47,911 nucleotides of DNA, from positions 1 through 47,911 of the forward strand of contig JALOTF010000020.1 of NCBI GenBank assembly GCA_025458025.1, given 5' to 3'. Below the pieces are notes generated by a model that was not told where the DNA came from, made no database searches, and worked only from the letters and a program-made list of their open reading frames with translations. This stretch comes from Beijerinckiaceae bacterium. GTDB lineage: Bacteria; Pseudomonadota; Alphaproteobacteria; Rhizobiales; Beijerinckiaceae. Of this stretch, positions 10,665-28,036 are shown piece after piece. The translations under genes and the position numbers were made by a program. How positions within the stretch are numbered: position 1 is the stretch's first letter; each line of letters begins with the position of its first letter.

Positions 10665-11465
10665 TCAGGCCGCGGGACGCGACGCCGCCCGCGCCAGAAT
10701 GGAACGGGCGCGCAGACGCACCGGCTCATCCACCATCGCGCCATCCACGGCCACCGCGCCCTCGCCGGATGCGAGGATGCGCTCTGCCCAGGTGATGTCC
10801 GTCGGCGAGGGCATGAAGCCTTCGATGGCCGGCGCGACCTGTTTGGGGTGAATGCAGAGCTTGCCCATGAAACCGAGTGAACGGGCATGCCGCGCGTCGT
10901 CGGTCACCAGTGCGGGTTGGTCGATGGCGGTCGTCACGCCATCAATCGGTGGCGTGAGCCCTGCCAGCCGCGAGGCCAGCACCAATTCCGAACGGGCCGC
11001 CAGCAACGCCTCGCGCGTATGTTCGCAGCCGAGATCAGCGCAATAATCGATCGAACCGAAGGCGAGGCGGAAGACGCCTTGCGTCGCGGCAATCTCGCGC
11101 GCATCCGCCAGCCCGCGCGCGCTTTCAACCAGCGCGATGACGCGGATTCCTGCCTTCATGGCTGCTGTGCAGGCCTGGCTGAGGCCGGGATTCGCTTCCG
11201 CTTTCGGCAGCATGATCGCGTGGATCTTCAGCGCGGTCGCCGCTGCGAGATCCGTTTCGTGCCAAGGCGAGCCGGGTGCATTCACCCGCACGATGACAGG
11301 GAGAGCTGTGAACGAAGCATCCAGCGCTGCGCGCGCAATCTCCTTGCGATCGGGTGCGACGGCATCCTCGAGGTCGAGGATGACCGCATCCGCGCCCGAG
11401 GCCGCCGCCTTGGCGAAACGCTCCGGGCGATCGGCGGGCACGAACAGGGGCGCGATGCATTCCAT
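10665..11465 (-). CDS. HpcH/HpaI aldolase, CitE-type acyl-CoA lyase (candidate citramalyl-CoA lyase)
   Basis: Mg-dependent TIM-barrel lyase of the CitE/malyl-CoA lyase family, which cleaves a beta-hydroxy diacyl-CoA to acetyl-CoA and a 2-oxo acid. In the 266-residue protein I see DLED (31-34), the CoA/substrate arginine R60 in RVNAP, LPKAE (86-90), and metal ligands E114 and D140 (FGSIDYCADLG). GKLCIHPKQV is typical near the C-terminus. It is the last gene of the 14-gene run, 71 bp after the Bug-type receptor gene. With a MaoC-like hydratase and CaiB transferase nearby, citramalyl-CoA (to acetyl-CoA and pyruvate) is the best guess. Malyl-CoA lyase activity is the alternative. Confidence 0.82.
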   Translation of the reverse strand: MECIAPLFVPADRPERFAKAAASGADAVILDLEDAVAPDRKEIARAALDASFTALPVIVRVNAPGSPWHETDLAAATALKIHAIMLPKAEANPGLSQACTAAMKAGIRVIALVESARGLADAREIAATQGVFRLAFGSIDYCADLGCEHTREALLAARSELVLASRLAGLTPPIDGVTTAIDQPALVTDDARHARSLGFMGKLCIHPKQVAPAIEGFMPSPTDITWAERILASGEGAVAVDGAMVDEPVRLRARSILARAASRPAA

Positions 11466-11536
11466 GGCTCAACTCGGGGAAGGAGGGGAGAGAAGGGCGA
11501 CCACAAGCCCTGGGCAAGCGGCCGCCCGGTTTCGCG

Positions 11537-12520
11537 TCACTCGATGCGCACGCCGGCAGCCTGGATGATGGGCGTCCAGCGCGCGATTTCAGAGGCGATG
11601 AAGGCGCGCAGGCCATTCGGGGTCTGCTGCTCGGCGGTGGGAATTTCCGCACCGATCTCCGTGAGCTTGGCCTTCAGGGTGGCATCATTCAGCGCCGCAC
11701 GTAGCGCGCCGTTCAGCTTTTCGATCGCAGCCGGCGGGGCATCCTTGTGCGTGAACATAGCGTTCCACACGATGACCTTGAAATCCGGCACGCCGGCTTC
11801 CGTGCTGGTCGGCACATCCGGCAGCAGGGCGGCGCGCTGGTCCTGCGCGATGGCGAGCGTCTTAATGGTGGCGGCGCGAGTCTGCGGCGCCACGTTCACG
11901 CCCTGGTCGCAGAGGTAATCGACCTTGCCGCCGACGAGATCGTTCATCGCCGGCGCGGTGCCGCGATAGGGGATGCCCGCGACCTTCACCCCGATCACCG
12001 AGTGGAAGAGCAGGCAGGTGGTGTGGCTCACGGAGCCCACGCCTGCATGCGCGTTGTTGGCGGTGGCCTGATTAGCCTTCAGCCAGGTCACGAGTTCGCG
12101 CAGCGTGTTGGCGGGGTGGTCCTTCCGCACATTCACGAAGATCGGGTTCGTGTTGACGAGGCCGATATGCGCGAAATCTTCCACCGGGCGATAGCGCAGG
12201 TTGGGGTTGAGCGACACGGCGGCAGCATGCGTGCCGGTATGGCCGATCAGGATCGTGTGGCCATCCGAGGCACCGGCCATCAGGCGCTGGCCCGCCAACG
12301 TGCCGGCCGCGCCCACCGCGTTCTCGATGATCACCGGCTGGCCAAGCGTGCGGCTCATATGCTCACCGATGAGACGACCCACCACGTCGGTCGGGCCACC
12401 AGCCGCGAAGGGGATGAGCATGGTGATGGGCTTGGTGGGGAAGTTCTGCGCCGCGGCAATGCCCGCGGACAGCGCAAGGGCCGCGAGGCCCGCCAGCAGA
12501 GGCCTGATTTGTAGTCTCAT
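11537..12520 (-). CDS. Bug-family (tripartite tricarboxylate transporter) substrate-binding protein, orphan
   Basis: Periplasmic receptor of the TctC/Bug family, which binds carboxylates for TctAB permeases. The 327-residue protein has a signal peptide (cleavage near residue 24, IAAA-QNF) and the family blocks YPTKPI-like FPTKPITMLIPFAAGGPTD, PVIIENAVGAAG and VPTSTEAGVPDF. No tctA or tctB gene is in the window. Lone Bug proteins are common in Betaproteobacteria and Hyphomicrobiales and may share permeases encoded elsewhere or act as sensors. It sits inside the catabolic operon between the acyl-CoA dehydrogenase and lyase genes, pointing to an acidic ligand. Confidence 0.9.
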   Translation of the reverse strand: MRLQIRPLLAGLAALALSAGIAAAQNFPTKPITMLIPFAAGGPTDVVGRLIGEHMSRTLGQPVIIENAVGAAGTLAGQRLMAGASDGHTILIGHTGTHAAAVSLNPNLRYRPVEDFAHIGLVNTNPIFVNVRKDHPANTLRELVTWLKANQATANNAHAGVGSVSHTTCLLFHSVIGVKVAGIPYRGTAPAMNDLVGGKVDYLCDQGVNVAPQTRAATIKTLAIAQDQRAALLPDVPTSTEAGVPDFKVIVWNAMFTHKDAPPAAIEKLNGALRAALNDATLKAKLTEIGAEIPTAEQQTPNGLRAFIASEIARWTPIIQAAGVRIE

Positions 12521-12561
12521 CGTTTTCTCCCTGTTTTCGGTCTGATTGTTCTTGTTTTTGC

Positions 12562-13725
12562 TCAGAATGACCTCGGCAAACCGAGGATATGCTCGGCGAC
12601 GTAGGACAGGATCAGGTTCGTCGAGATCGGCGCGACCTGATAGAGCCTCGTTTCGCGGAACTTGCGTTCGACATCATATTCGCACGCAAAGCCGAAGCCG
12701 CCATGGAACTGGATGCAGGCATTCGCCGCCTCCCAACTCGCCTTGGCGGCGAGATACTTGGACATGTTCGCCTGCGCGCCGCAGGGCTGGTGCGCATCAT
12801 AGAGCCGGCAGGCCTCGAAGCGCATGAGGTTCGCGGCCTCCACCTCGATGAAGCTCTCGGCGATGGGGAATTGCACGCCCTGGTTCTGGCCGATGGGACG
12901 GCCAAACACGATCCGCTCCTTGGTGTAGGCCGTCACCTTGTCGATGAACCAGTAGCCATCACCGATGCATTCCGCCGCGATCAGCACGCGCTCGGCATTG
13001 AGGCCGGTGAGGATATACTTGAAGCCCTGGCCCTCTTCCCCGATGAGGTTCTCAGCCGGAATCTCCAGATTGTCGAAGAACAGCTCATTCGTCTCGTGAT
13101 TGACCATGTTGAGGATGGGCCGTACCTCCAGCCCCTTGCCGATGGCCTCGCGCAGATCGACGAGGAAGATCGACATGCCCTCGCTCTTCTTCTTGACCTG
13201 ATCGAGCGGGGTTGTGCGCGCGAGCAGGATCATCAGGTCCGAATGCTGGATGCGGGAAATCCACACCTTCTGGCCGTTGATGACGTAGCGATCGCCCTTC
13301 TTGACGGCGGTGGTCTTGATCTTGGTGGTGTCGGTGCCGGTAGTCGGCTCCGTCACGCCCATGGATTGCAGGCGGAGTTCGCCGCTCGCGATCTTCGGCA
13401 GGTAGAATTTCCGCTGCGCTTCCGAACCATGCCGGATGAGCGTGCCCATATTGTACATCTGGCCGTGGCAGGCACCGGAATTGCCGCCCGCGCGGTTGAT
13501 CTCCTCCATGATGACGCTCGCCTCGGTGAGGCCGAGGCCCGAGCCGCCATACTCCTCGGGGATGAGCGCGGCCATCCAGCCGGCCTTGGTGAGGGCATCG
13601 ACGAATTCCTCGGGGTAGCCGCGTTTCTCATCGATCTTGCGGTGATATTCGGCGGGAAATTGGGCGCAAAGATCGCGCACCGCCTCGCGGATTTCGGGGA
13701 AGAGTTCGGCACCAACATTCTGCAT
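12562..13725 (-). CDS. Acyl-CoA dehydrogenase
   Basis: FAD-dependent alpha,beta-dehydrogenase of acyl-CoA thioesters. The 387-residue protein has the N-terminal helical domain, the SMGVTEPTTGTD flavin-binding block (121-132), VINGQKVWIS and the C-terminal IQFHGGFGF (338-346). The canonical catalytic Glu of the MCAD type is absent: the equivalent place reads YQVAPIST. A Glu is present at 245 in GLNAERVLIA, the place used by isovaleryl-CoA and long-chain enzymes. Start ATG 13725 was chosen because upstream sequence of the open frame is unlike the family. The gene is 23 bp downstream of the MaoC-like gene. A methylsuccinyl-CoA-type substrate fits the neighbourhood but is inferred. Confidence 0.9.
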   Translation of the reverse strand: MQNVGAELFPEIREAVRDLCAQFPAEYHRKIDEKRGYPEEFVDALTKAGWMAALIPEEYGGSGLGLTEASVIMEEINRAGGNSGACHGQMYNMGTLIRHGSEAQRKFYLPKIASGELRLQSMGVTEPTTGTDTTKIKTTAVKKGDRYVINGQKVWISRIQHSDLMILLARTTPLDQVKKKSEGMSIFLVDLREAIGKGLEVRPILNMVNHETNELFFDNLEIPAENLIGEEGQGFKYILTGLNAERVLIAAECIGDGYWFIDKVTAYTKERIVFGRPIGQNQGVQFPIAESFIEVEAANLMRFEACRLYDAHQPCGAQANMSKYLAAKASWEAANACIQFHGGFGFACEYDVERKFRETRLYQVAPISTNLILSYVAEHILGLPRSF

Positions 13726-14609: not shown

Positions 14610-15974
14610 TCAGGTGGTCCGGGGCGTCGCGAGGCACGCGAGGCTCGTCGCGAATTCGCGCGCGGATTGCCGGGCGATGCCTTCATCCAGCGTGATCACA
14701 ACGCGGGCTGACGCATCCGGCAGGAGGGCCCGCACCTTCGCGGCGATCTTCGCGCGGCGCTCGGGAAGGGGGATCGGCGCATCGAGATCGACAAAGGTTT
14801 CGAGTGTGGTGCCATCGGCCATGTCAAGCCGGACCTGCGCGGCAGTATCGCTGATGCTCCCGTCACCGGTGACGGTCACGCGGTCACGCAGGGGCAGAAG
14901 GTCGGCACGGGCGCAGGTCTCCGACGAGAAGACATCGAGCGCGCCGGTATCCATGCCAGAAAGCGCCATGGCGCTGGTGAGGCGGTAGGAGAATTTAGCC
15001 TCCAGCCCCGTCTCTGGTGCCGGGATATCACACACGCGCAGCCAGCGCGGATTGACCCGTAGGTTGACGCCTTTCACGCGCTCAAGGCTGAATTCCGGGC
15101 GCTGGCGCAACTGGTTCAGCGCTTCCAGAGTCGCGTGCGTGCCATGGCAGCAGGCATGGAATTTGTGCTGCACGGCCTCGAACCAGAACGCCGTGCCGAG
15201 GCCCGCGAGCGACGCTTCGAGATCACGGCATTCGCCCGCATGCGTCTCCGCGAAGCCTTGCAGGCATTCGATGCCATCGGGCCGCGAGATGAACCCGCCC
15301 GCTGCGAGCAAAGCAGCTTCCACGCCGTTGGAGGCGGCAATGCCGGCATTGAAGGGCTTGCCCATCGTGCCGAATTGCGATTTCAGCCCGGAGGCGCGCG
15401 TCGCGGTGACGCCGAGCGCATGCTGCATCCGCTCCTGCGAGAGGCCCAGCAATCGCCCCGCCGCCACGCATGCGCCGAAAGCACCGGCGGTCGCGGTCTG
15501 GTGGAAGCCGTGATTGTAATGCCCCGTGCCGAGCCAATGGCCGATGCGGCTGGCCGCTTCCATGCCAATCAGCGCGGCTTCGAGGAAGGCCGCACCGCTC
15601 ACATCCTGCCGCTCGGCCATGGCGAGCGCGGCGGGGAAAATCGCCACGCTGGGATGGCCGACATTCGCGAAATGCGTGTCATCGTAATCGAGGGCATGAG
15701 ACAGCGCGCCATGGGCGAGAGCTGCCGCGCGGGCCGGCACTTTGCGTTCAAGGCCCAGCACGGTTGCCTGCGCGTTGCCGGCTTCCTCCGCAACCATTGC
15801 GCGGACGATGCGCGCGACCGGCTCATCGAGCCCGGCCAAGGCGACTGCGGCCCAATCCATGAGCGAGAGTCGCGCGACGGCAAGCGCCGAGGGCGGGATG
15901 TCTCGCGCGGGGCCTACCCCGAAAGCAGCAACGCGCGAGGTGATCGAGCCGGAATCCATACGAATGCCGTCCAT
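14610..15974 (-). CDS. MmgE/PrpD family protein (cis-aconitate decarboxylase/methylcitrate dehydratase superfamily)
   Basis: The family contains 2-methylcitrate dehydratase (PrpD), cis-aconitate decarboxylase and related enzymes acting on tricarboxylates. In the 454-residue protein I see ALDYDDTHFANVGHP (94-108), GHYNHGFHQTAT (151-162), GKPFNAG (205-211) and FHACCHGTH (272-280), which carry the His, Asp and Lys positions used by cis-aconitate decarboxylase. These residues are shared across the family, so they do not fix the reaction. The ATG at 15974 lies one base after the fumarase stop (TGAGATG). An MmgE/PrpD gene is also part of the Pseudomonas itaconate cluster, where its role is not clear. 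Confidence 0.87.
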   Translation of the reverse strand: MDGIRMDSGSITSRVAAFGVGPARDIPPSALAVARLSLMDWAAVALAGLDEPVARIVRAMVAEEAGNAQATVLGLERKVPARAAALAHGALSHALDYDDTHFANVGHPSVAIFPAALAMAERQDVSGAAFLEAALIGMEAASRIGHWLGTGHYNHGFHQTATAGAFGACVAAGRLLGLSQERMQHALGVTATRASGLKSQFGTMGKPFNAGIAASNGVEAALLAAGGFISRPDGIECLQGFAETHAGECRDLEASLAGLGTAFWFEAVQHKFHACCHGTHATLEALNQLRQRPEFSLERVKGVNLRVNPRWLRVCDIPAPETGLEAKFSYRLTSAMALSGMDTGALDVFSSETCARADLLPLRDRVTVTGDGSISDTAAQVRLDMADGTTLETFVDLDAPIPLPERRAKIAAKVRALLPDASARVVITLDEGIARQSAREFATSLACLATPRTT

Positions 15975-17481: not shown

Positions 17482-18612
17482 TCAGCCGTGCATGGTGATG
17501 ACGTGGCGGATCACCTCGCCGCGATCCAGTCGGTCAAAGGCCTCGTTGATGCCCTCCAGCGGTCCTGTGGAGGAGAGGAGCTTGTCCACCGGCAGCTTGC
17601 CTGCCTTGAACAGCGCGATGTAGCGCGGGATATCGCGGCTCGGCACGCAGGAGCCCATATAGCCCCCCATCACGATCCGCTCCTCGGCAACAAGGCTCAC
17701 GGCGGGCACGGCGAATTGCGTCGCTGGTGCGGGCAGACCGCCCGTGGCGGTGATGCCGCCGCGCCGCGTGATGGCATAGGCCGTTTCAAAAGCTTTCGCT
17801 GCGCCCGCGAGTTCAATCGCGTGGTCCACGCCGCCCTTCGTGAGGGCACGCACCTGCGCCACGAGATCGGGATCGGAGGCGAGGAAACCATCGGTCGCGC
17901 CGAGGTCTTTCGCGATTGTGAGCTTCGCGGGGTTAAGGTCAATCGCGATGATCCGCTCAGCGCCACTAGCGACCGCCCCAAGCACGGCCGAGAGCCCGAC
18001 GCCGCCAAGCCCGATGACCGCCACGCTCTGGCCCGGCCGCACCTTGCAGGTGTTCATCACCGTGCCGACGCCGGTCATCACCGCGCAGCCAAAAAGCGCC
18101 GCATGGGTGAGCGACACATCCGGGTCGATCTTTACGATCGAACGGCGATGCACCACGGAATATTCCGAGAAGGCGCAGACCCCGCAATGGTGGTTCAGCG
18201 AACCATCATCGCAGGTAAAGCGCCGCCCGCCACCGAGCAGGGTTCCCGCGACATTCGCCGCATTGCCCGGCTCGCAGAGGGCCGCGCGGCCTTCCGCGCA
18301 GAAGCCGCAGGTGCCGCAGGTCGGCACGAAACTCATCACCACGGGATCACCGCGCTTCAGGTCATCGACGCCCGCGCCGACCTCCTCGACCACTGCCGAG
18401 GCTTCGTGCCCCAACGCCACGGGCAGCGGCCGTGGCCGATCGCCGTTGATGCCCGAGAGATCGGAATGACACACCCCCGCCGCCGCGATCCGCACCAGCA
18501 CCTCGCCCGGGCCCGGTGGCGCCAGCGTCACGGTCTCGATGGAGAGCGGACGCGATTGCGCATAGGGCCGGGGCAGGCCGGACTGGCGGAGAATGGCGGA
18601 GCGAATCTTCAC
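17482..18612 (-). CDS. Zinc-dependent alcohol dehydrogenase
   Basis: Medium-chain NAD(P)-dependent alcohol dehydrogenase. The 376-residue protein keeps catalytic zinc ligands C48 (GVCHSD) and H69-E70 (GHE), the four structural-zinc cysteines C99, C102, C105 and C113, and the Rossmann loop GLGGVG. The pattern is closest to class III-like and aryl/acyclic alcohol dehydrogenases. It would oxidise a primary alcohol to an aldehyde for the aldehyde dehydrogenase encoded two genes upstream. Spacing to the SDR gene is 29 bp and to the fumarase gene 9 bp, so it is within the operon. Confidence 0.9.
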   Translation of the reverse strand: MKIRSAILRQSGLPRPYAQSRPLSIETVTLAPPGPGEVLVRIAAAGVCHSDLSGINGDRPRPLPVALGHEASAVVEEVGAGVDDLKRGDPVVMSFVPTCGTCGFCAEGRAALCEPGNAANVAGTLLGGGRRFTCDDGSLNHHCGVCAFSEYSVVHRRSIVKIDPDVSLTHAALFGCAVMTGVGTVMNTCKVRPGQSVAVIGLGGVGLSAVLGAVASGAERIIAIDLNPAKLTIAKDLGATDGFLASDPDLVAQVRALTKGGVDHAIELAGAAKAFETAYAITRRGGITATGGLPAPATQFAVPAVSLVAEERIVMGGYMGSCVPSRDIPRYIALFKAGKLPVDKLLSSTGPLEGINEAFDRLDRGEVIRHVITMHG

Positions 18613-18641: not shown

Positions 18642-19394
18642 TCAGATCGTGCGGCCGCCATCGACCTCAAGAATGACGCCCGTGACGAACTCAGCTTCAT
18701 CCGAGGCGAGATAGAGGCAGGCATTGGCGATATCATCCGGCGTCGAGAGACGGCCGAGCGGGATGGTGCCAAGGAATTTCGCCCGGTTCTCCGGCGTATC
18801 CGGCATGCCCATGAACTGTTCCAGCAGGCCGGTCGCGCCCATCACCGGGGCCACGCAATTCACGCGGATCTTGTCCGGCGCGAGTTCCACGGCCATCGAG
18901 CGCGAGAGCAGGTTCACTGCCCCCTTGGTGGAGTTGTACCAGGTGAGGCCAGGGCGCGGGCGGATGCCGGCGGTCGAGCCGATGTTGATGATTACGCCGC
19001 CGCCTTTTGCCCGGTAATGCGGGATGATCGCGCGCGACATGTGGAACATCGCCTTCACGTTGATCGCGTAGACGCGATCGAATTCCTCTTCCGTCACCTC
19101 CATGATCGGCTTGTTGCGATGGCTCCAGCCGGCATTGTTCACGACGATATCAAGCCGCCCGCCGCCAAATTCCGCCGCGGTCTTCACGGCAGCTTCGGTC
19201 TCGGCCTGCGAGGTCACATCCGCCTTCACCGCGATGGCCGAAGCACCGATTTCCGAGGCGACGCGCTTGGCGCCTTCGAGATTGATATCCACCACCGCAA
19301 CCTTCGCGCCTTCGCGCGCATAGGTCTTCGCAATGCCTTCGCCGAACCCCGAACCCGCGCCGGTGATGAGGGCGGTCTTGCCTTTGAGACGCAT
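18642..19394 (-). CDS. Short-chain dehydrogenase/reductase
   Basis: Classical SDR oxidoreductase of 250 residues. The cofactor loop is TGAGSGFGEG (11-20), D36 after the second strand suggests NAD(H), NNAG is at 86-89 and the catalytic set is S140, Y153 and K157. ATG 19394 was chosen because AAGGAG lies 7 nt upstream; an in-frame TTG five codons earlier overlaps that site. Related sequences are annotated as 3-oxoacyl-ACP reductase or glucose dehydrogenase, but the context suggests an alcohol or hydroxy acid in the catabolic route. Substrate unknown. Confidence 0.9.
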   Translation of the reverse strand: MRLKGKTALITGAGSGFGEGIAKTYAREGAKVAVVDINLEGAKRVASEIGASAIAVKADVTSQAETEAAVKTAAEFGGGRLDIVVNNAGWSHRNKPIMEVTEEEFDRVYAINVKAMFHMSRAIIPHYRAKGGGVIINIGSTAGIRPRPGLTWYNSTKGAVNLLSRSMAVELAPDKIRVNCVAPVMGATGLLEQFMGMPDTPENRAKFLGTIPLGRLSTPDDIANACLYLASDEAEFVTGVILEVDGGRTI

Positions 19395-19450
19395 GGTCAA
19401 CTCCTTCAAATCCTGAGTGAATAAGCGGGGTGGGCTCCCGCTGTGCGAGT

Positions 19451-20914
19451 TCAGCCGTGTTTGACGACGAGGGTTTTCAGCGCGCCGAATTCATAGAGCG
19501 CCTCGAAGCCCTTCTCGCGGCCATGGCCGGATTTCTTCATGCCGCCGAAGGGCAGTTCGATGCCGCCGCCCGCGCCATAGCCGTTCACGAAGAGCTGGCC
19601 GGCGCGCACCTTGCGGGCCACGCGGATCGCGCGGTTGCAATCGCCCGACCAGACGCCCGCGACGAGGCCGTAATCCGTGCCATTGGCGAGGCGCAGCGCG
19701 TCTTCCTCATTGTCGAAGGGCATGGCCGCGAGCACGGGGCCGAACACTTCGAGCTGTGCGAGTTCGGAAGCCGGGTTTACCTCGTGGTAGATCGTGGGCT
19801 GCACATAGAAGCCATCGGCGGGCGTGTTGCTGGCGATCTGGCCCTGCGCGAGAATGCGCGCACCATCGCGTTCCGCCCGCTGGAGCATCGCGCCGATGCG
19901 GTTCTTCTGGCCGGCGCTGATCACCGGGCCGAGATCGAGATCCATCTCCGGCGTGCCGGCACGGATCTGCTCGAAGCGAAGCTTGAGATCCGCCATGAAC
20001 TTGTCCCAGATGCGCCGTTCCACCAGCACGCGGGAACCCGCCGAGCAGGTCTGCCCGGCATTCTGCACGATCGCCCCAGCCACAGATTGCACGGCTGCTG
20101 CGAGATCGGCATCGCCGAACACGATCTGCGGAGATTTGCCGCCGAGTTCGAGCGTGCAGCCGATATGGTTCTTCGCCGCCGCGATCTGGATCAGCGTGCC
20201 GACTTCCGGGCTACCCGTGAACGAGATGAAATCGATCCCGCGATGGTTGGAGAGCGCGGCACCCGCTTCTTCGCCGAGGCCGGGCACCACGTTGATCGCG
20301 CCATCGGGGAAGCCCGCTTCCGCCGCGAGTTCCGCGAGGCGCAAAGGCACCATGCAGGCCTCCTCCGCCGGTTTGATGACGGTGGCGTTGCCCATGGCGA
20401 GGGCCGGGGCGACCGTGCGGCCGAACATCTGGCCGGGATAGTTCCACGGGATGATATGCGCCGTGACACCCAGCGGCTCATAGAGCGTGTTGACAAGAAA
20501 CCCTTCCATAAAGGGAATGGTGTCGCCATGCACCTTGTCAGCCGCACCGCCGTAGTATTCGAAATAGCGGCTCACGGCGACGACATCGGCGCGGGCCTGC
20601 TTCAGCGGCTTGCCGGTATCGCGCGCTTCGAGCAGCGCGAGTTCCTCGAAATTGTCATCCACGAGGCGCGACAGGCGCATCAGCAGGCGACCCCGCTCGG
20701 TGGCACTCAGGCGGCCCCATGCGCCGGTCTCCAGAGCGGCGCGCGCGGCGGCCACCGCGAGGTCGATATCCTCGGCATTGCCCGCGGCGATGGCCGCGAA
20801 GGGCTGGCCATCCGCAGGTGCAATCATCGGGATCGACTTGCCGGATTTCGAGGGCTGCCAGCGGTTGTTGATGAAGACGCCCTTGGCGGCTTCCGTGCGC
20901 AGGATCTGGTTCAT
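19451..20914 (-). CDS. Aldehyde dehydrogenase family protein
   Basis: NAD(P)-dependent aldehyde dehydrogenase of 487 residues. The oxyanion Asn is in PWNYP (N158), the cofactor loop is FTGSPEVG (232-239), the general base E256 is in LELGGKSP and the nucleophile C290 in GQTCSAGSR. Near the end is the usual LPFGGMKKSGHGRE. Its ATG overlaps the livF stop by 4 bp (ATGA), which physically joins the importer genes to the catabolic genes. It is likely to oxidise a semialdehyde or aldehyde to the acid that is then activated with CoA. The precise substrate is unknown. Confidence 0.92.
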   Translation of the reverse strand: MNQILRTEAAKGVFINNRWQPSKSGKSIPMIAPADGQPFAAIAAGNAEDIDLAVAAARAALETGAWGRLSATERGRLLMRLSRLVDDNFEELALLEARDTGKPLKQARADVVAVSRYFEYYGGAADKVHGDTIPFMEGFLVNTLYEPLGVTAHIIPWNYPGQMFGRTVAPALAMGNATVIKPAEEACMVPLRLAELAAEAGFPDGAINVVPGLGEEAGAALSNHRGIDFISFTGSPEVGTLIQIAAAKNHIGCTLELGGKSPQIVFGDADLAAAVQSVAGAIVQNAGQTCSAGSRVLVERRIWDKFMADLKLRFEQIRAGTPEMDLDLGPVISAGQKNRIGAMLQRAERDGARILAQGQIASNTPADGFYVQPTIYHEVNPASELAQLEVFGPVLAAMPFDNEEDALRLANGTDYGLVAGVWSGDCNRAIRVARKVRAGQLFVNGYGAGGGIELPFGGMKKSGHGREKGFEALYEFGALKTLVVKHG

Positions 20915-21630
20915 GTCCGGTCTCCGGTATGGCTGGCCGCCGGAGCAGCCATGATGTGTGAAGCCCCGTCGCGTTTCTTCGTGGAAAGGATCTCGCCGCG
21001 CTCGATGGTGAGTGTGGTGTCGGCGAAGGCTTCCAGCAGCTTGGGGTTGGATTCGGTGATGAGGATGGCGATATCCGGGTCATGCGCGCGCAAGCGCCGC
21101 AAAGCCTCGGCGTAACGCTGGGCGAGCACCGGCGCGAGTCCCTGGAAGGGCTCATCCAGGATCACGAATTTCGTGCCGAGCATCAGCGCGCGGCCAAGGG
21201 CCACCATCTTGCCCTGCCCGCCCGAAACCGAGCCCGCGGGGCGCGGCGCGAGTTCCTTCAGTTCCGGCATCACCATATAGGCGCGTTCGAGCCGCCGCGC
21301 GGTTTCCGCCGCCGAGAGCTTGCCCACACGCGCGGGCAGCAGCACGTTTTCCTCCACCGTGAAGGCGGAGAAGAGCCGGCGATCCTCCGGCGCATAGCCG
21401 ATGCCTAGGCCGGGGCGCAGATGCGGCGGCACCTTCGCAAGGTTCTCAGCGTTGAAGGTGAGTCCACCGGTCATCTCGGTGAAGCCCATGATGGTGCGGA
21501 CGGTTGTGGTCTTCCCCGCGCCGTTATGGCCGATCAGCGCGCAGGTCGCGCCATGCGCGATGGTGAAGCTCAGCTGGCGCAGCACATGCACGCCGGCGAT
21601 CGTGACATTGACCTTGTCGAAGCTCAGCAT
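20911..21630 (-). CDS. livF: Branched-chain-type ABC transporter ATPase LivF
   Basis: Second ATPase of a HAAT (LIV-type) importer. The 239-residue protein has Walker A GHNGAGKT (34-41), signature VSGGQ (135-139) and Walker B VILDEP (156-161). The last 25 residues are an alanine-rich tail not needed for the fold. It starts 3 bp after livG and its stop overlaps the aldehyde dehydrogenase start (ATGA). Substrate is set by the binding protein encoded at 24405-25712, not by this subunit; a carboxylate linked to the adjacent catabolic genes is likelier than leucine. Confidence 0.93.
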   Translation of the reverse strand: MLSFDKVNVTIAGVHVLRQLSFTIAHGATCALIGHNGAGKTTTVRTIMGFTEMTGGLTFNAENLAKVPPHLRPGLGIGYAPEDRRLFSAFTVEENVLLPARVGKLSAAETARRLERAYMVMPELKELAPRPAGSVSGGQGKMVALGRALMLGTKFVILDEPFQGLAPVLAQRYAEALRRLRAHDPDIAILITESNPKLLEAFADTTLTIERGEILSTKKRDGASHIMAAPAASHTGDRT

Positions 21631-21633
21631 GGC

Positions 21634-22377
21634 TCAGATCCCGATCACATGCGCGCGGACTTCCGCGTTCTGCAGCACTTCCGAGGGCGGGCCCACGATC
21701 TGGATCTTGCCCGAACTCCACACCGCCACGCGCGAAGCGTAGCGCTCCACCATCTCCATGTCGTGCTCGACGAAGACGGAGCTGACCTTCTGCTGCTTCA
21801 GCGCGTTGGTGAGGATATCCATGATCCCCATCTTCTCTGCCGAGGCTACACCCGAGGTGGGCTCGTCCATCAGCAGAACGCGCGGCTTCAGGGCCAGAGC
21901 AAGCGCGATATCCACGAGCTTGCGCTGCCCCTCGGGCAGTTCGAACGTGCGACGATCGGCGAAAGCGCGTACGCCGACGAGATCGAGCAGGGCTTCCATC
22001 TCTGCGCGCTCCGGCAGGTCCATCAGACGGCGAAAGCCCGTCATCTGCCCGGTGCGGGCGGCGGCGCTCATCAGCATGTTTTCCATCACCGTCTGCTCGA
22101 GAAAGAGCTGCGGGATCTGGAAGGCACGCGCCACGCCCAGCTTGGTGATGGTGCGCGGGGGCAGGGCCGTGATGTCCTTGCCGAGGAAGCTCACACTGCC
22201 CGCCTGTGGCCGGAGATAGCCGGTCGTCATGTTGAGGAAGGTGGTTTTGCCCGCCCCGTTCGGGCCGATGATCGCGAGGTTCTCACCTTCGAGCACGTCG
22301 AGGTCGATGCCATCGGCAGCGATCACACCACCGAAGCGGATTTTCAGCCCGCGGGCGGAGATAAGAACATTACTCAT
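21634..22377 (-). CDS. livG: Branched-chain-type ABC transporter ATPase LivG
   Basis: First ATPase of the LIV-type importer. The 247-residue protein has Walker A GPNGAGKT (38-45) and Walker B VLLMDEP (167-173). The signature motif reads LPEGQRK (147-153), a departure from the common LSGGQ or LSYGQ, with the conserved Gly and Gln kept. Its ATG overlaps the livM stop by 4 bp (ATGA), so translation is coupled. It belongs to the same operon as the permeases and the aldehyde dehydrogenase. Confidence 0.93.
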   Translation of the reverse strand: MSNVLISARGLKIRFGGVIAADGIDLDVLEGENLAIIGPNGAGKTTFLNMTTGYLRPQAGSVSFLGKDITALPPRTITKLGVARAFQIPQLFLEQTVMENMLMSAAARTGQMTGFRRLMDLPERAEMEALLDLVGVRAFADRRTFELPEGQRKLVDIALALALKPRVLLMDEPTSGVASAEKMGIMDILTNALKQQKVSSVFVEHDMEMVERYASRVAVWSSGKIQIVGPPSEVLQNAEVRAHVIGI

Positions 22378-23327
22378 CGTTTGCCCTCCGATGCCGCGCC
22401 GCGCTTGAGGAGGCCGATGAGCCCCGACGGTGCGAACATGATGATCACGATGAGCACCACGCCGAGGATGAGCTGCCAGGCATTGGCGAGTTTGGCCGCA
22501 GCGAGGAAGCGCACGATCTCGAACATCGCGGCACCCGCGAAGGCACCCGCCGCATTGGCTGTGCCGCCGAGGATCGCGATAAAGACGAACTCGCCGGATT
22601 TGGTCCAGAAGGCGAATTCCGGCGTCGCGATCTGCTGCGCGACCGTCACGAGTGCACCACCGAGGCCACCAAGGAAGGCCGAGATGATGTAGCCGATCAG
22701 CAGCACCTTGCGGGCGGAGACGCCGAGATATTCAAGGCGTGTCTCGTTCGTTTTTATCGCCTTGAGCATGTGGCCCAAGGGTGAATCGAGGTAGCGCTGC
22801 ACGGCGAAGCTCGCGACCAGCGCCAGCGCCAGCGTGATGTAGAGCAGCAGATACTGGAAGGTCTCCGGCGGAAACGCCATGCCGGCGATAGTGGGCCGCG
22901 CCACGCGAATGCCATCCGCACCATTGGTGAAGTGGTAGAGCTTCTCCAGCAGCGACCACAGCACCATCGAGAATGCGAGGTTGAGCATACCGAAGAAGAT
23001 CTCGCGGTAGCGCACCACGAAAACGCCCACCAGCGCACCGACCAGGGTCGCCACGACCGGTGCGATCACGATGTAGAGCAGCAGGTCGCCCGTACCGAGA
23101 TACTTGCCCCAGAAGGCGACCGAATAGGCCCCGAGACCGAAGAACATCGCGTGGCCGAAGGAGACCTGCCCCGCCTGCAGCAGGATGATGATGCCGAGCA
23201 CCACGATGCCCTTGGCGAGAATGAGCGTCACGAGCGTCGTCCAGCTCGGCAGCAGCGCAGGCACGATGATCGAGGCAGCAATCGCGATGGCGATCAGCAC
23301 CCGATGAAGGTTCGAGAGGCGCGCCAT
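22374..23327 (-). CDS. livM: Branched-chain-type ABC transporter permease LivM
   Basis: Membrane permease of the LIV-type importer, 317 residues with about eight to ten transmembrane helices. Typical blocks are LQAGQVSFGHAMFFGLGAY, NLAFSMV and AIKTNETRLEYLGV (the ATPase-facing loop). The open frame extends to 24281, but that extension is a shadow of livH. The ATG at 23327 shares one base with the livH stop (TGATG) and gives the normal length. It is coupled to livG by an ATGA overlap. Confidence 0.93.
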   Translation of the reverse strand: MARLSNLHRVLIAIAIAASIIVPALLPSWTTLVTLILAKGIVVLGIIILLQAGQVSFGHAMFFGLGAYSVAFWGKYLGTGDLLLYIVIAPVVATLVGALVGVFVVRYREIFFGMLNLAFSMVLWSLLEKLYHFTNGADGIRVARPTIAGMAFPPETFQYLLLYITLALALVASFAVQRYLDSPLGHMLKAIKTNETRLEYLGVSARKVLLIGYIISAFLGGLGGALVTVAQQIATPEFAFWTKSGEFVFIAILGGTANAAGAFAGAAMFEIVRFLAAAKLANAWQLILGVVLIVIIMFAPSGLIGLLKRGAASEGKR

Positions 23328-24226
23328 CAGATCTTCCTCACCTTGTTGACGCCGAACAGCCCCATGGGCCGGACGAGTAGCACGATGACCATGATCAGGT
23401 AGGGCACCAGCACCTCCAGCTCCGGCTGGATGTAGATGACGAAGGCGCGGGCCAAGCCGATCATCAGGGCGGTCACTGCTGCGCCCTCGATCTGGCCGAG
23501 GCCGGCGGTCGCCGCGACCGCGAAGGACAGCACGATCATGTCCGTGCCCATGCCCGGCACCAGCGATGTCGTGGGCGAGGCCAGCGCACCGCCCAGAGCC
23601 GCCAGGGTCGCGCCGATGATGAAGGTGATGAGAAACACGTTCCGCGCATTGATGCCGATGGCGGTCGCGGCCTCGCGATCCTCGGTCACCGCGAGGATCA
23701 CCGCGCCGGAGAGAGTGTGCCGCAGGAAATAGCGCAGGCCGATCAGCGTCCCCAAGGCTACCAGCGGCAGCAGGATCACCTGATACGAGGTGTAGGTGAC
23801 GCCGAGCAGCGAGACATTCGGCAGCAGCCGCACGGGTTCTGCCGCGAAGATCGGCTGCACGCCCCAGATCAGCCTTTGCAGGTTGTCCATGATCATGAAG
23901 ACCGCAAAGGTGATGAGCAGTTGCAGCACCTCCTCGCGGCCATAGACCGGGCGCAGCAGGAAGGTTTCGAGAAGCCCGCCCACGAACACGCCGATGATCA
24001 GCGCCGCGATGAGCAGGGCGGGAAAGGTGAGCCAGGGCGAGATGGGGGCGACCAGCAGGCTGATCGTCGCGGCCATGTAGGCGCCATAGGCATAGAGCGA
24101 GCCATGCGCGACATTCACAACGCGCAGCACGCCGAAGATGAGGCTCAGCCCCACCGAGACCAGAAACACGAGGGCGGCGTAGCTCAGCCCATCGAGAATG
24201 GCCAGAATGGCAATGGTCGAATCCAT
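23327..24226 (-). CDS. livH: Branched-chain-type ABC transporter permease LivH
   Basis: Membrane permease of the LIV-type importer, 299 residues with about eight transmembrane helices. Recognised by GLSYAALVFLVSVGLSLIFGVLRVVNVAHGS-type N-terminal sequence, AVTEDREAATAIGIN (cytoplasmic coupling loop) and the end FGVNKVRKI. Start ATG 24226. The gap to the binding-protein gene is 178 bp and holds a perfect 12-bp hairpin, which suggests lower expression of the permease genes than of the receptor. The stop overlaps the livM start by one base. Confidence 0.93.
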   Translation of the reverse strand: MDSTIAILAILDGLSYAALVFLVSVGLSLIFGVLRVVNVAHGSLYAYGAYMAATISLLVAPISPWLTFPALLIAALIIGVFVGGLLETFLLRPVYGREEVLQLLITFAVFMIMDNLQRLIWGVQPIFAAEPVRLLPNVSLLGVTYTSYQVILLPLVALGTLIGLRYFLRHTLSGAVILAVTEDREAATAIGINARNVFLITFIIGATLAALGGALASPTTSLVPGMGTDMIVLSFAVAATAGLGQIEGAAVTALMIGLARAFVIYIQPELEVLVPYLIMVIVLLVRPMGLFGVNKVRKI

Positions 24227-24349
24227 CGGAAGTCCCTGCCGGCTTCACGCGGGCATCGCGCGGGCATGCCCGGCGGCCCATTGGTCCTTCGGTGCCTGTT
24301 TGTCAGGCGAACCGGATACCGCTTCATCCCGGTTGGTCGGAGCGGTTGG

Positions 24350-24404: not shown

Positions 24405-25712
24405 TTAGCCGCCGTGTTTGAAGGTCGGCACGTTCATCTTGTAGAAATCGGCCGGCAGCGTCTTAAGCCAATCCACCGACTTCTGGCCCGGCGGCGTGGT
24501 GATGCTCTTCGGCTCGAACAGCATCATGTTGTCGAGCACCATGAAGTTATGCGCCGGGTCGGCCTTGGTCACGCCGACCAGCTGCGCCTCGAGGCCCTGA
24601 TTGTCCTCGGCACGCATGGTGATCGGACGGCCCCAGCCCTTGAATTCGAGGCCCGAGGCGGCATCCACCACCTGCTCGCGGGTCGGCCACTTGCCGCCAT
24701 TGGTCTTGATCGCCTTCTCATAGGCGCCCTGCAGGGCCGAGAAAGCCTGCTGCATGTGGTAGACCGAGTAGATCGGCCAGGCACCGGTCTTGGCGCGGAA
24801 CGCCTCGTTGAAGGCCTTGAAGGCCGGGTCGTTCTTCATTTCCGGGTGCAGGAACCAATGGTCGCCGCGAGCACCCACGATCAGCCCTTCCGGCAGATCC
24901 TTGCCGAGGCGCTGCAGCGAGGTTTCGCCGATACCCAGCACGAAAGTGCTCTGGCGCAGAAGGCCACGCTGGCCCGCCTGACGAACGAGCGTGTCGAGGT
25001 CACCGCCCCAGCTCGTGGTCAGCACGACATCCGGACGAAGCGCCATCAGGCGGGAGATTTCGGTCGAGTAATCCGGTGCGCCGAATTTCGGGAAGAGTTC
25101 GGCCACGATCTTCACATCCGGCTTCATCTGCTTCAGCGCGGTGGAGAAGATCTCCCAGCTCTCGCGGCCCCAGGCATAATCCTGGTTCACGACGGCGATG
25201 GTCTTGAAATCCGGCTTGGTCTTCAGGAGGTAGATCAGAACCGCCAGCATTTCCGGCGTCGCATTGGCCTGCGAGCGGAAATTGTAGCGATACTTCTTGG
25301 CTTCGAGGATCGAGGCCGCACCGCAATCCCACATGAAGTTCATCATCTTCAGGTCTTCGGCGAGCGGGGCCAGCTGCTGGCAGCTGCCCGAGGAGATCGC
25401 CGAGAAGGTCACGTCCACCTTCTCATCCTGCACGAGGCGGCGGAAATTCGAGACGAGAGCCTCGCCGCCGGCACCCTCATCGATGAAGCTCAGCGTCACC
25501 GGCACGCCGCCGATGCCACCCTTCTTGTTGATCTCTTCGGCGATCATCTCGGCCGCAGCCTTGGCCGGCACGCCGAAGACCGAGGCCGGGCCCGACAGGA
25601 AGGTCGCGATGCCGACCTTGACTTCCTTGGGCTTGTCCTGCGCGAAAGCCGGGCCGGCCATCAGGCCCGCGGCGCCCAGCAAGGCGCCCATCCATGTCCT
25701 GCGATTGATCAC
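24405..25712 (-). CDS. LIV-type ABC transporter substrate-binding protein
   Basis: Periplasmic receptor of the type I (Leu/Ile/Val-binding-like) family, 435 residues. The N-terminus has an RR pair (NRRTWMGALLGAAG) before a hydrophobic stretch and an AFA-Q cleavage site near residue 24, so Tat export is possible though the motif is not perfect. The mature part begins KEVKVGIATFLSGPASVFG and shows the two-lobed family pattern. Translation starts at GTG 25712 after GGGGAGG. It is the first gene of the 14-gene run. The ligand is unknown; context suggests the catabolic substrate rather than a branched amino acid. Confidence 0.9.
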   Translation of the reverse strand: MINRRTWMGALLGAAGLMAGPAFAQDKPKEVKVGIATFLSGPASVFGVPAKAAAEMIAEEINKKGGIGGVPVTLSFIDEGAGGEALVSNFRRLVQDEKVDVTFSAISSGSCQQLAPLAEDLKMMNFMWDCGAASILEAKKYRYNFRSQANATPEMLAVLIYLLKTKPDFKTIAVVNQDYAWGRESWEIFSTALKQMKPDVKIVAELFPKFGAPDYSTEISRLMALRPDVVLTTSWGGDLDTLVRQAGQRGLLRQSTFVLGIGETSLQRLGKDLPEGLIVGARGDHWFLHPEMKNDPAFKAFNEAFRAKTGAWPIYSVYHMQQAFSALQGAYEKAIKTNGGKWPTREQVVDAASGLEFKGWGRPITMRAEDNQGLEAQLVGVTKADPAHNFMVLDNMMLFEPKSITTPPGQKSVDWLKTLPADFYKMNVPTFKHGG

Positions 25713-25886: not shown

Positions 25887-26795
25887 TCAGGTTGAGCGCT
25901 GCATCGCCTGACTCTCGGCCGCGATCTCGTTCAGGAGCTTCTGGGTCGGGGGGCTCACCGGGCGATCCAGCGGGTAACACACAACAAGATTGCGCATCGC
26001 CCATTCATCGGTGAAGCGCACGACATTGACTTCCGAATCCCGTACACCCGGCGGAATGGTGTTGAGCGGCAGCACCGCCACGCCTGCGCCGGCGGCCACC
26101 ATGCGGCAGACGCTCTCGAAGCTGCGCAGGCGCAGACGGATATTGATGCTGCGGCCCAGCCGCGCCGCATGGGTGAGGAGGAAGGTGTTGATCGCCGAGT
26201 GACGATCAAGCCCGATGAACCGCTCCGAGGTGATGTTTTCGAACGCGACGGATCGCGCCTGGCCGAGAGGATGCCCGATCGGCGTGATCAGCACCAGTTG
26301 ATCCACCCGGAACAGGGTTGCGGCAAGGCCATCGAGATTGGCGGTTCCCGCGCAGATGCCGATATCCGCGTCGCCGGCCCTGAGCGCCGAGGCAATGACC
26401 TCCGAGGTTTCTTCCTCAAGGTCGATCACGATTTCCGGGTGCCGCGCGAGGAAAGAGGCGAGGACATCAGGCAGGAAGCTCGAAATCGCGGTAGAATTGG
26501 CCTTCAGGCGAATGGTGCCGGAAATCCGGCCCTTCCAGTTCGCCACCGCGCCATCGAGCCGCTCGGTCTGCAGCACCACGGCGCGTGCGAGGGCCGCGAA
26601 TTCGAGCCCGTCCTGCGTGGGTCGCGATCCCCGCGCGGAGCGGGTGAGAAGCTGCACGCCCGCGCGCTGTTCCAGCGTCTTGATGCGTTCCGAAAGGGCC
26701 GAGACCGAGATGTTCGCGTGGCGTGCTGCGGGCGCGATGCCCCCGCGCTCGACGGCCTGAATGAAGAGGCGGAGATCCACGAGATCGTAATGCAC
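25887..26795 (-). CDS. LysR-family transcriptional regulator
   Basis: DNA-binding regulator of 302 residues with an N-terminal winged helix-turn-helix (DLRLFIQAVERGGIAPAA, then ISVSALSERIKTLE, about residues 7-45) and a periplasmic-binding-like effector domain. It starts at GTG 26795. It lies directly upstream of the 14-gene run in the same direction and is divergent from the CaiB-type gene, the usual place for a regulator of both. The P. aeruginosa itaconate cluster is likewise controlled by a LysR protein. The effector is probably a pathway acid or CoA ester, by inference. Confidence 0.92.
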   Translation of the reverse strand: MHYDLVDLRLFIQAVERGGIAPAARHANISVSALSERIKTLEQRAGVQLLTRSARGSRPTQDGLEFAALARAVVLQTERLDGAVANWKGRISGTIRLKANSTAISSFLPDVLASFLARHPEIVIDLEEETSEVIASALRAGDADIGICAGTANLDGLAATLFRVDQLVLITPIGHPLGQARSVAFENITSERFIGLDRHSAINTFLLTHAARLGRSINIRLRLRSFESVCRMVAAGAGVAVLPLNTIPPGVRDSEVNVVRFTDEWAMRNLVVCYPLDRPVSPPTQKLLNEIAAESQAMQRST

Positions 26796-26807
26796 AGCAT
26801 TCGCCTT

Positions 26808-26829
26808 TGCCGAAAGAAGACATTCGGCA
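26808..26829. promoter_or_regulatory. Candidate LysR operator between lysR and the CoA-transferase gene
   Basis: TGCCGAA, 8 bp, then TTCGGCA: perfect 7-bp arms in the 98-bp divergent gap. The arms contain the T-N11-A type spacing expected of LysR sites. It lies 12 bp from the lysR GTG, so binding would also repress lysR itself, and 64 bp before the CoA-transferase ATG, where it could act as an activator site. This is the only strong dyad in the gap. Confidence 0.55.
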
Positions 26830-26893
26830 TTCCGTCTACACCTGAGACCCTGTTTCCCGCTACCCTTGCCGCAAAGTCAGGAGAAACGCCCCC

Positions 26894-28036
26894 ATGGTTC
26901 GCCCGCTCGACGGTTTGCTGGTCGTCTCGCTCGAACAGGCCATCGCCGCCCCCTATTGCACGCGGATGCTCGCGGATAATGGCGCGCGGGTCATCAAGAT
27001 CGAGCGGCCCGATGGCGGCGATTTCGCCCGAGCATACGACACCCGGGCGCGCGGGCTTTCGAGCCATTTCGTCTGGACCAACCGCTCGAAGGAGAGCGTG
27101 ACGCTCGATGTGAAGAGCGAATTCGGTCGCAATGCGCTCGAAACGCTGGTTTCGAAAGCGGATGTCCTTGTGCAGAACCTCGCGCCCGGCGCGCTGGATC
27201 GCCTCGGCTTTGGCGCAGCGGCGATGCGCGCGCGTTTTCCCCGGCTCATCCATTGCTCGATCTCCGGCTACGGCGAAGGCGGGCCCTACAGCGACCGCAA
27301 GGCCTATGATCTGCTGATTCAAGCCGAGGCAGGGTTCCTCTCGATCACGGGATCGCAAAGCGAGATGGCGAAAGCAGGCGTATCCATCGCGGATATCGCG
27401 GCGGGGCAGGCAGCCTATGGCGCGGTGCTCAACGCCATCATCCGGCGGGGACGCACGGGCGAGGGCGACATCATCGACATTTCCATGCTGGAGGCGATGG
27501 TCGAGTGGATGGGTTTCCCGCTTTATTACGCGATGGATGGCGCGGCTTCGCCGCCGCGCGCCGGCGCGGGCCATGCCACGATTTACCCCTATGGCCCGTT
27601 CGAGACGGCTGATGGCGTCGTGCTGTTCGGCCTGCAAAACGACCGGGAATGGGATCAGTTCGCAACCATCGTGCTCGAACGGCCGGATCTTGCAGGCGAT
27701 GCGCGCTGCAAGGGCAATGCGGGCCGTGCCGCCAACAAGCCTTTCCTCGAAGGGATCATCAACCCGGTCCTGAAAGGCCTGACATCGGAAGTCGTTCTGC
27801 GCCGGCTGGAAGCGGCGGGTATCGGCAATGCACGTGTGAACACGCTGGCCGATGTCTGGGGTCATCCGCAATTGCAATCGCGCGCGCGGTGGGTGGAGGT
27901 CGCGAGCGAGAAGGGCGCGATCCCCAATATCCGCCCGATTTCCGGCCAGGGTTGGGAGCCGCGCATGGAGCCGATCCCCGCTTTGGGCGAGCATACGGAC
28001 GCTGTGCTCAATGAATTCGGCCTCTCCCCGGTCTGA
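26894..28036 (+). CDS. CaiB/BaiF-type (family III) CoA transferase
   Basis: Transfers CoA between carboxylic acids, typically from succinyl-CoA, by way of an aspartyl-CoA enzyme intermediate. The 380-residue protein has the family start PLDGLLVVSLEQAIAAPYCTRMLADNGARVIKIE and the catalytic Asp D139 in KAYDLLIQAEAG. The ATG at 26894 follows CAGGAGA. It is divergent from lysR and apparently monocistronic. In the context of the hydratase and lyase genes it is the likely activating step (for example itaconate, mesaconate or methylsuccinate CoA transferase). The known itaconate CoA transferase of P. aeruginosa is of this family. Substrate not proven. Confidence 0.9.
   Translation: MVRPLDGLLVVSLEQAIAAPYCTRMLADNGARVIKIERPDGGDFARAYDTRARGLSSHFVWTNRSKESVTLDVKSEFGRNALETLVSKADVLVQNLAPGALDRLGFGAAAMRARFPRLIHCSISGYGEGGPYSDRKAYDLLIQAEAGFLSITGSQSEMAKAGVSIADIAAGQAAYGAVLNAIIRRGRTGEGDIIDISMLEAMVEWMGFPLYYAMDGAASPPRAGAGHATIYPYGPFETADGVVLFGLQNDREWDQFATIVLERPDLAGDARCKGNAGRAANKPFLEGIINPVLKGLTSEVVLRRLEAAGIGNARVNTLADVWGHPQLQSRARWVEVASEKGAIPNIRPISGQGWEPRMEPIPALGEHTDAVLNEFGLSPV

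Follow-up and report, generated by a model that had tools for sequence, protein, structure and literature searches.

What does a cell take up and oxidize with a gene cluster in which enzymes of the itaconate and methylsuccinate type are joined to a complete LIV-type ABC importer, an aldehyde dehydrogenase (ALDH), a short-chain dehydrogenase (SDR), and a zinc alcohol dehydrogenase (ADH)? The question is raised by positions 10665-28036 of contig JALOTF010000020.1 (assembly GCA_025458025.1) from a Beijerinckiaceae bacterium of the same genus as Rhabdaerophilum sp. SD176; the whole stretch analysed, 47,911 nt, is called the window below. The front end of this cluster is a recurring addition to the itaconate-type core, found whole or in part across genera, including a betaproteobacterium. 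Judging from gene content and homology, we hold it somewhat better than an even bet (roughly 0.55) that the locus is one catabolic unit, in which an imported branched C5 precursor would be oxidized to methylsuccinate, itaconate, or mesaconate and then cleaved to acetyl-coenzyme A (CoA) and pyruvate.

Gene content and layout

Fourteen genes form a tight run on the minus strand from 25712 down to 10665, with LivK first and CitE last. A LysR gene lies upstream of LivK on the same strand, and a CaiB gene is divergent from it. Intergenic distances from LivH to CitE range from 4-bp overlaps to 71 bp, the LivF stop and the ALDH start overlapping in an ATGA, and LivK is separated from LivH by 178 bp. 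The gene families that an earlier note had named for this region were all recovered at 10665-28036 by Pfam and related scans. The CaiB and LysR genes are given first, followed by the run in its own order.

26894-28036, plus strand: CaiB-type CoA transferase, predicted itaconate/(R)-methylsuccinate CoA transferase (Ict); PF02515, 339 bits
25887-26795, minus strand: LysR regulator; HTH_1, LysR_substrate
24405-25712, minus strand: LivK-type periplasmic receptor; Peripla_BP_6, 189.3 bits
23327-24226, minus strand: LivH permease; BPD_transp_2, 108.1 bits
22374-23327, minus strand: LivM permease; BPD_transp_2, 91.5 bits
21634-22377, minus strand: LivG ATPase; Pfam ABC_tran
20911-21630, minus strand: LivF ATPase; Pfam ABC_tran
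19451-20914, minus strand: ALDH, the marker of the cassette; PF00171, 510.6 bits; 12-row clade, support 100 in the approximate likelihood ratio test (SH-aLRT)
18642-19409, minus strand: SDR (Pfam), TsaC-like by its match to a solved structure
17482-18612, minus strand: zinc ADH, class I/III type; Pfam; 1hdy, 255.8 bits
15976-17472, minus strand: class I (Fe-S) fumarase, predicted mesaconase; Pfam Fumerase 308.4 and Fumerase_C 268 bits; TIGR00722 and TIGR00723 over cut-off
14610-15974, minus strand: MmgE/PrpD protein, predicted 1,4-dicarboxylate epimerase/isomerase; PF03972, 189.1 bits
13749-14597, minus strand: FAS1_DH-region hydratase, predicted itaconyl-CoA/mesaconyl-C4-CoA hydratase (Ich); PF13452, 26.8 bits
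12562-13725, minus strand: acyl-CoA dehydrogenase (Pfam), predicted (RS)-methylsuccinyl-C4-CoA dehydrogenase (Mcd)
11537-12520, minus strand: Bug/TctC periplasmic receptor; PF03401, 191.7 bits; no NCBIfam match
10665-11465, minus strand: CitE/HpcH-type C-C lyase, predicted (S)-citramalyl-CoA lyase; PF03328, 132.3 bits

A single 635-aa permease open reading frame at 22374-24281 was rejected, LivM and LivH being two separate BPD_transp_2 proteins. Scans for promoters and terminators gave nothing above chance.

The core is of a known kind

Five-gene clusters for itaconate and methylsuccinate (Ich, Mcd, Msi, Ict, Ccl) were characterized in 2025 in Cupriavidus necator and Pseudomonas aeruginosa (PMC12290011). 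In clusters of this type the dehydrogenase is described as a methylsuccinyl-C4-CoA dehydrogenase and the MmgE/PrpD protein as a methylsuccinate isomerase (PMC12290011), and class I fumarases as mesaconases that supply the same pathway (PMC12290011, PMC9875883).

The dehydrogenase of the window falls with Burkholderiales five-gene clusters in a group that we call clade A (37 rows, SH-aLRT 100), as expected of a methylsuccinyl-C4-CoA dehydrogenase. The CoA transferase does the same (clade A, 35 rows, SH-aLRT 97), as expected of an itaconate CoA transferase, on a long basal branch. The hydratase has two strong solved relatives with nearly equal scores, 8khg (“Itaconyl-CoA hydratase,” E 1.8e-76) and 8huc (“MaoC_dehydrat_N domain-containing protein”). 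The match to 8khg points to a hydratase of the P. aeruginosa type; the tree is weaker, with a nine-row same-genus group including the window joined to Burkholderiales rows in a 66-row node (support 81) that is drawn open and has weak deep joins. The lyase matched 8khl (“Probable acyl-CoA lyase beta chain”) at 190.8 bits against ~90 bits for malyl-CoA lyases, an identity that we therefore rejected; its node support in trees is moderate, and it scored 158.6 bits with the RipC_Ccl model, under the cut-off of 375. The fumarase has both domains of a class I enzyme and reached 176.3 bits with the E. coli FumA model (cut-off 1105). All trees were quick IQ-TREE runs with SH-aLRT as the only support measure, several with long-branch warnings. 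Hand lists of near-duplicate, mostly Polynucleobacter, loci took 26 loci out of the hydratase, the MmgE/PrpD, and one lyase tree, 29 out of the CoA transferase tree, and 34 out of the dehydrogenase tree and the other lyase tree, and length and identity thresholds were applied to the ALDH and dehydrogenase sets.

The core is thus, as far as homology tells, of an already known kind, the dehydrogenase and the CoA transferase grouping firmly, and the hydratase more weakly, with the itaconate/methylsuccinate five-gene clusters. Because of their homology to published enzymes, and on that basis only, the six core families and the fumarase can be accounted for by known biochemistry. The earlier note had proposed a core of the P. 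aeruginosa itaconate type, and the solved-structure matches and the dehydrogenase and CoA transferase trees bear this out; the grouping that the same note regarded as fatal to its proposal, a lyase among malyl-CoA lyases and a hydratase among unrelated clades, was found for neither enzyme (8khl, 8khg).

The MmgE/PrpD protein departs from this pattern. Together with those of four same-genus operons it forms its own five-row group (SH-aLRT 100), 30-35% identical to the Burkholderiales rows, and because the tree places it apart we rejected its identity as the known methylsuccinate isomerase. The catalytic residues named for that isomerase are His88, Glu91, His102, Tyr148, His152, Lys202, and Lys266 (PMC12290011); in an alignment inspected by eye all are kept except Glu91, which is replaced by Asp, as is also reported for iminodisuccinate epimerase (PMC12290011). 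As the other isomerase residues are kept, the protein likely catalyzes a proton-moving reaction on some 1,4-dicarboxylate. The route outlined in the earlier note, from import and oxidation to CoA transfer and cleavage, is supported in part.

The front end

The importer is a complete LIV/HAAT-type system with one Peripla_BP_6 receptor, two BPD_transp_2 permeases, and two ABC_tran ATPases. Solved relatives of LivK gave weak matches as to ligand, the best at 64.9 bits. The Bug protein stands as a receptor only: a scan of the cluster genes, which did not extend to other parts of the genome, gave no TctA or TctB of a tripartite tricarboxylate transporter. The ADH scored below the cut-offs of all 22 NCBIfam models listed, and its identity as a class III ADH/glutathione formaldehyde dehydrogenase was rejected (TIGR02818, 278.1 bits against a cut-off of 543.95). 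The closest solved structure to the SDR is the 4-formylbenzenesulfonate dehydrogenase TsaC (8sy8, 264.3 bits). Across cassettes, as we call the joined importer and oxidoreductase genes, members of the ALDH group are 57-91% identical to the ALDH of the window. Among the papers listed by literature searches for a C5 lactone or diol route, none showed such a pathway. The earlier note had thought the whole combination undescribed. Within the literature searched this holds for the front end only (LivKHMGF, ALDH, SDR, and ADH), which looks new, whereas the core roles and the mesaconase activity of fumarase are published.

Recurrence in other genomes

Loci and genomes compared carry L and G numbers here. 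Rhabdaerophilum sp. SD176 and three other same-genus genomes (L021-L024) have a seven-gene run of CaiB', ALDH, SDR, ADH, PrpD, hydratase, and dehydrogenase, with ALDH, SDR, and ADH 89-93% identical to those of the window; in L022 this run is flanked by a pdxJ-side and a lepB-rnc-era-side block, a different site from that of the window. A Comamonadaceae metagenome-assembled genome (L040) shows LysR-LivKHMGF-ALDH-SDR-ADH-Bug-hydratase-dehydrogenase up to the end of its contig, with identities of 31-79% to the window (ALDH 59, SDR 69, ADH 59) and the ADH on the opposite strand. The fullest case is L243 (genome G909), where hydratase, dehydrogenase, CaiB, PrpD, CitE, LivHMGF, ALDH, SDR, LivK, ADH, LysR, and Bug follow each other on one strand; this is the whole set save the fumarase, in a gene order that differs from the window, and its PrpD, which shares 71% identity with the one in L079, belongs to the five-gene type. 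In genome G961, LivKHMGF-ALDH-SDR is followed 9 to 11 kb further on by ADH, hydratase, dehydrogenase, and CaiB. We count L243 and G961 to the betaproteobacterial side since they were drawn as relatives of the Comamonadaceae genome. In G034 (L180/L222) and G027 (L160) the Liv-ALDH cassette lies beside a parallel set of CoA transferase, dehydrogenase, and hydratase, no ADH being found in the former and no SDR in the latter. With the ALDH as sole query, G1260 (L252) was found to hold an unbroken LysR-CaiB'-PrpD-ACAD'-hydratase'-CitE-ALDH, where primes denote the parallel versions and ACAD the acyl-CoA dehydrogenase. Because the combination recurs in other lineages, the oxidoreductases and the importer seem to be part of one unit with the core, much as the earlier note had supposed; the overlap of LivF with ALDH and the short intergenic distances speak for the same coupling.

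Two neighbors of these loci may be recorded. A gene of the trimethylamine methyltransferase (MTTB) family (L252:12604-14184) adjoins the six-gene CaiB'-ALDH operon on the opposite strand. In L213 a second fumarase (9010-10671) follows LivKHMGF-ALDH-SDR; it scores best, at 694 bits, with E. coli FumA-type models, though under the cut-offs of these, and as it is related only distantly to that of the window (32% identity), two kinds of fumarase adjoin the cassette.

To judge how often this occurs, LivK relatives were counted in at least 7 of 385 genomes of the class, at least 5 of 100 relatives, and at least 3 of 249 relatives of the Comamonadaceae genome, index genomes included; the genome searches scored part of the first-look candidates under strict E-value limits, so that tallies are lower bounds (the ALDH of G027, for example, is absent from the ALDH search listing). 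Excluding G000 and G829, 12 LivK genomes could be read over 6 to 27 kb per side, less at contig ends. ALDH stands beside Liv in 6 of them (G384, G060, G034, G027, G909, G961), the contig ending inside the ALDH in G060 and ~3.6 kb past it in G384. The hydratase lies within ~18 kb of LivK in 4 of the 12 (G034, G027, G909, G961), against ~0.06 of 12 expected by chance (P ~4e-7), an expectation taken from 35 hydratase matches in 240.6 Mb of the window's own order and hence only a guide for other groups; moreover, in two of the four, G034 and G027, a hydratase close to ALDH and Liv was already known when the LivK searches recovered them. The ALDH search added at least 3 genomes of 357, one of them (G1260) with the core. 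Among 105 hydratase loci, 10 have an ALDH within 13 kb, accompanied by SDR in 7, ADH in 8, and Liv in 5, although this set mixes loci from hydratase, ADH, and LivK queries and includes the window, which biases the ADH and Liv associations by selection. The ADH alone was rejected as a marker of the pathway, since hydratase and dehydrogenase were present in just 2 of 20 ADH loci read (L160, L161).

Two versions of the CoA steps

The CaiB and dehydrogenase trees each split into two deep groups: clade A, which takes in the window along with the five-gene clusters, and clade B; the hydratases of clade B loci form no single group. Parts of the two are found together: in L021-L024 and L195 the CoA transferase is of clade B, the dehydrogenase of clade A, and the hydratase of the group to which that of the window belongs, and L191 joins a clade A dehydrogenase to a clade B CoA transferase. 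This mixing suggests that both versions act on the same or very similar CoA esters. Among the 12 LivK genomes a CaiB is near Liv in 7, of clade B by tree in G384, G060, G034, G027, and G798 and clade A-like by identity alone in G909 and G961. The uncharacterized parallel group of CaiB', ACAD', and hydratase occurs in L160, L179, L180, L183, L185, L187, L188, and L252, with or without the ALDH/Liv cassette.

Genomic site

The cluster is cargo in a variable site (window 9105-30245) between an ion-channel gene and a glycosyltransferase family 2 gene. Stretches of nine same-genus genomes were compared, four of them with both flanks on one stretch; the flanks are conserved and enclose different cargo, being ~0.4 kb apart in G003, where no tRNA gene was found in the stretch read, and ~3.9, ~5.2, and ~12.9 kb apart in G002, G008, and G005, with other genes between. 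Two further features lie on the CitE side:

10042-10115, plus strand: tRNA-Gly(CCC), edge of the variable site; ARAGORN, Rfam
10259-10642, plus strand: PcaC-like gene of the carboxymuconolactone decarboxylase family; Pfam CMD, 80.5 bits; TIGR02425 PcaC, 143.6 bits, under its cut-off of 155.7

An integrative element was rejected: no copy of the tRNA 3' end occurs elsewhere in the window and no integrase was present among the window genes scanned with Pfam, which were not all of them. The open reading frame 10067-10888, which overlaps the tRNA, was rejected as a gene for want of a family match. The position in a variable site fits spread by transfer and also leaves room for a chance joining of two operons. 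The PcaC-like gene, a possible accessory gene between the tRNA and CitE and convergent with the latter, falls outside the range given in the earlier note, which holds for the named families. Among the loci scanned, its relatives adjoin an ADH in L168, lie ~7 kb from one in L157, and in L244 stand some kilobases off the G909 cluster.

What the front end may supply

Four same-genus loci (L025, L194, L195, L028) have the core and fumarase with no ADH, SDR, or ALDH of at least 55% identity. L025 has a complete DctPQM tripartite ATP-independent periplasmic (TRAP) importer by Pfam, genes related to its components occur in L194 and L195, and L028 has neither. With TRAP genes in three of four loci that lack the cassette, a LIV importer joined to ALDH more likely carries something other than the free diacid.

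Related loci give a hint as to what this might be. Lactonase-like hydrolases occur in three loci that have some or all of the parallel set. Two of these, L222 and L160, each contain a metallo-beta-lactamase-fold hydrolase whose nearest model is that of the lactonase AidB (143.8 and 125.6 bits, respectively, against a cut-off of 360); in one case the gene stands within the run, flanked by CitE and SDR. The third, L191, has a relative of the enol-lactonase PcaD (115.1 bits, under cut-off). In L187 an iron ADH takes the place of the zinc enzyme. These genes point to lactone or alcohol precursors. In L157 and L158, which are without the core, a lactonase-like metallo-hydrolase (53% identical to that of L222) directly precedes an ADH 67% identical to that of the window.

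In the scheme that we therefore favor, the LIV-type importer would carry not the free branched C5 diacid but a compound that leads to it: a primary alcohol, an aldehyde, or a hydroxy acid of the sort that gamma-lactones or methyl-branched 1,4-diols would yield. ADH and SDR would oxidize the alcohol group or groups and ALDH the aldehyde, giving methylsuccinate, itaconate, or mesaconate. The reactions assigned to the core are those of the papers on its relatives: the Ict-type CaiB would join the saturated and methylene acids to CoA, the MmgE/PrpD protein having adjusted stereochemistry at the acid stage; the dehydrogenase would convert methylsuccinyl-CoA into mesaconyl-C4-CoA, and the hydratase would form (S)-citramalyl-CoA, to be split by CitE into acetyl-CoA and pyruvate. 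Mesaconate could enter through the fumarase as (S)-citramalate. Both the operon and the divergent CoA transferase gene are probably under LysR control. That these activities operate in this organism, like the front-end substrate, the importer cargo, and the regulation, we infer. One may tentatively go further, into what we find possible and rather doubtful, and see in the cassette the front end of an undescribed aerobic alpha- and betaproteobacterial pathway from branched C5 gamma-lactones or 1,4-diols to C5 diacids with two exchangeable versions of the CoA steps; alpha-methylene-gamma-butyrolactone might then yield itaconate through 4-hydroxy-2-methylenebutanoate, and 2-methyl-1,4-butanediol methylsuccinate.

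Several observations weigh against the scheme. As to the core, the trees contain no characterized Ict, Mcd, or Msi sequence; 8khg, the sole characterized row of the hydratase tree, is long-branched and placed apart from the window, next to the parallel-set loci L161 and L180; and no enzyme of the cluster exceeds any curated NCBIfam cut-off that names a C5 substrate. As to the front end, the Liv group stands without ALDH in 6 of the 12 LivK genomes, the ALDH group without the core in 2 of the 3 further ALDH-search genomes (one on a 10.4-kb contig), and the ADH type is common alone, with matches in 70 genomes. There is no lactonase gene in the window cluster, and lactonase-like metallo-beta-lactamases were near the ADH in just 3 of 28 ADH-group loci. 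Across the 105 hydratase loci TRAP and ALDH are not significantly exclusive (0/10 against 6/95, p 1.0), and we dropped this as statistical evidence.

The front end could instead supply a different dicarboxylate, such as another branched acid, a C4 or C6 acid, or a sulfonated analogue, with the CoA steps acting on that homologue. This would agree with the association of the cassette with the uncharacterized parallel set, with an MmgE/PrpD protein outside the isomerase group, and with the kinship of the SDR to TsaC. We consider it unlikely, since the dehydrogenase and CoA transferase of the window are in clade A and the L243 cassette is accompanied by a PrpD so close to that of the five-gene cluster L079. 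More improbable still is an ordinary operon for scavenging itaconate, methylsuccinate, and mesaconate, in which the free diacids would enter through Liv, and ADH, SDR, and ALDH would play an incidental or detoxifying part. Such an operon would need no more than the published core, to which a fumarase adds mesaconate as in the PMC12290011 scheme, and in L219 a CaiB' does stand directly before Liv without ALDH; but the same-genus loci with core and fumarase that lack the cassette mostly turn to TRAP importers or their parts, and the ALDH is conserved from cassette to cassette.

Little different in its low standing, and if anything a shade less probable, is a joining of two unrelated catabolic operons in the variable site, the Liv-ALDH-SDR-ADH block serving another substrate. 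The changing cargo beside tRNA-Gly would allow it, as would the occurrence of Liv, ADH, and ALDH each without the core. A chance joining is hard to reconcile with the return of the combination in other genera and a betaproteobacterium in different gene orders, with L022, where ALDH-SDR-ADH is set between CaiB' and PrpD-hydratase-dehydrogenase, with L252, where the ALDH ends the core operon, or with the closeness of LivK and hydratase. The single catabolic unit fed by a branched C5 precursor thus remains our preferred reading.

Comparison with known systems

According to PMC12290011, it was not clear where methylsuccinate comes from in the environment before gut bacteria were found to reduce itaconate, and yet its isomerase and dehydrogenase genes are widespread; a strain that failed to grow on methylsuccinate is also on record (PMC7118221). 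A conserved alcohol- and aldehyde-oxidizing block with an importer in separate lineages points to oxidized branched C5 compounds as a further source of methylsuccinate, and if the lactone or diol idea were true, methylsuccinate or itaconate would also arise in nature by oxidation. The locus also marks a second, uncharacterized CoA transferase/dehydrogenase/hydratase set that swaps parts with the known one, and it names genes that can be tested.

With the C. necator and P. aeruginosa clusters, as PMC12290011 and PMC9875883 present them, the window shares hydratase, dehydrogenase, CoA transferase, C-C lyase, and an MmgE/PrpD gene; C. necator, too, has a gene for a TctC-type receptor near its cluster. 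It differs in the group of its MmgE/PrpD protein, in a fumarase within the operon, in the added ADH, SDR, and ALDH, and in a LIV importer where P. aeruginosa is described with a branched short-chain dicarboxylate transporter. The use of mesaconate by class I fumarase, as described in the same two papers, is paralleled by an Fe-S class I fumarase with Ict and Ccl functions, although the enzyme of the window is far from the E. coli FumA model and its mesaconase role is a prediction. The loci L025, L194, and L195 have the same hydratase, dehydrogenase, CoA transferase, and fumarase families, with TRAP or its parts in place of LIV, none of the three oxidoreductases at 55% identity or more, and in L195 a clade B CoA transferase. 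The parallel-set clusters (L160, L180/L222, L187, L252) resemble the window in their LysR, ALDH, CoA transferase, dehydrogenase, and hydratase families, some also having LivKHMGF, SDR, PrpD, and CitE, but their CoA transferase and dehydrogenase belong to separate uncharacterized clades, and some add the lactonase-like hydrolases or the iron ADH.

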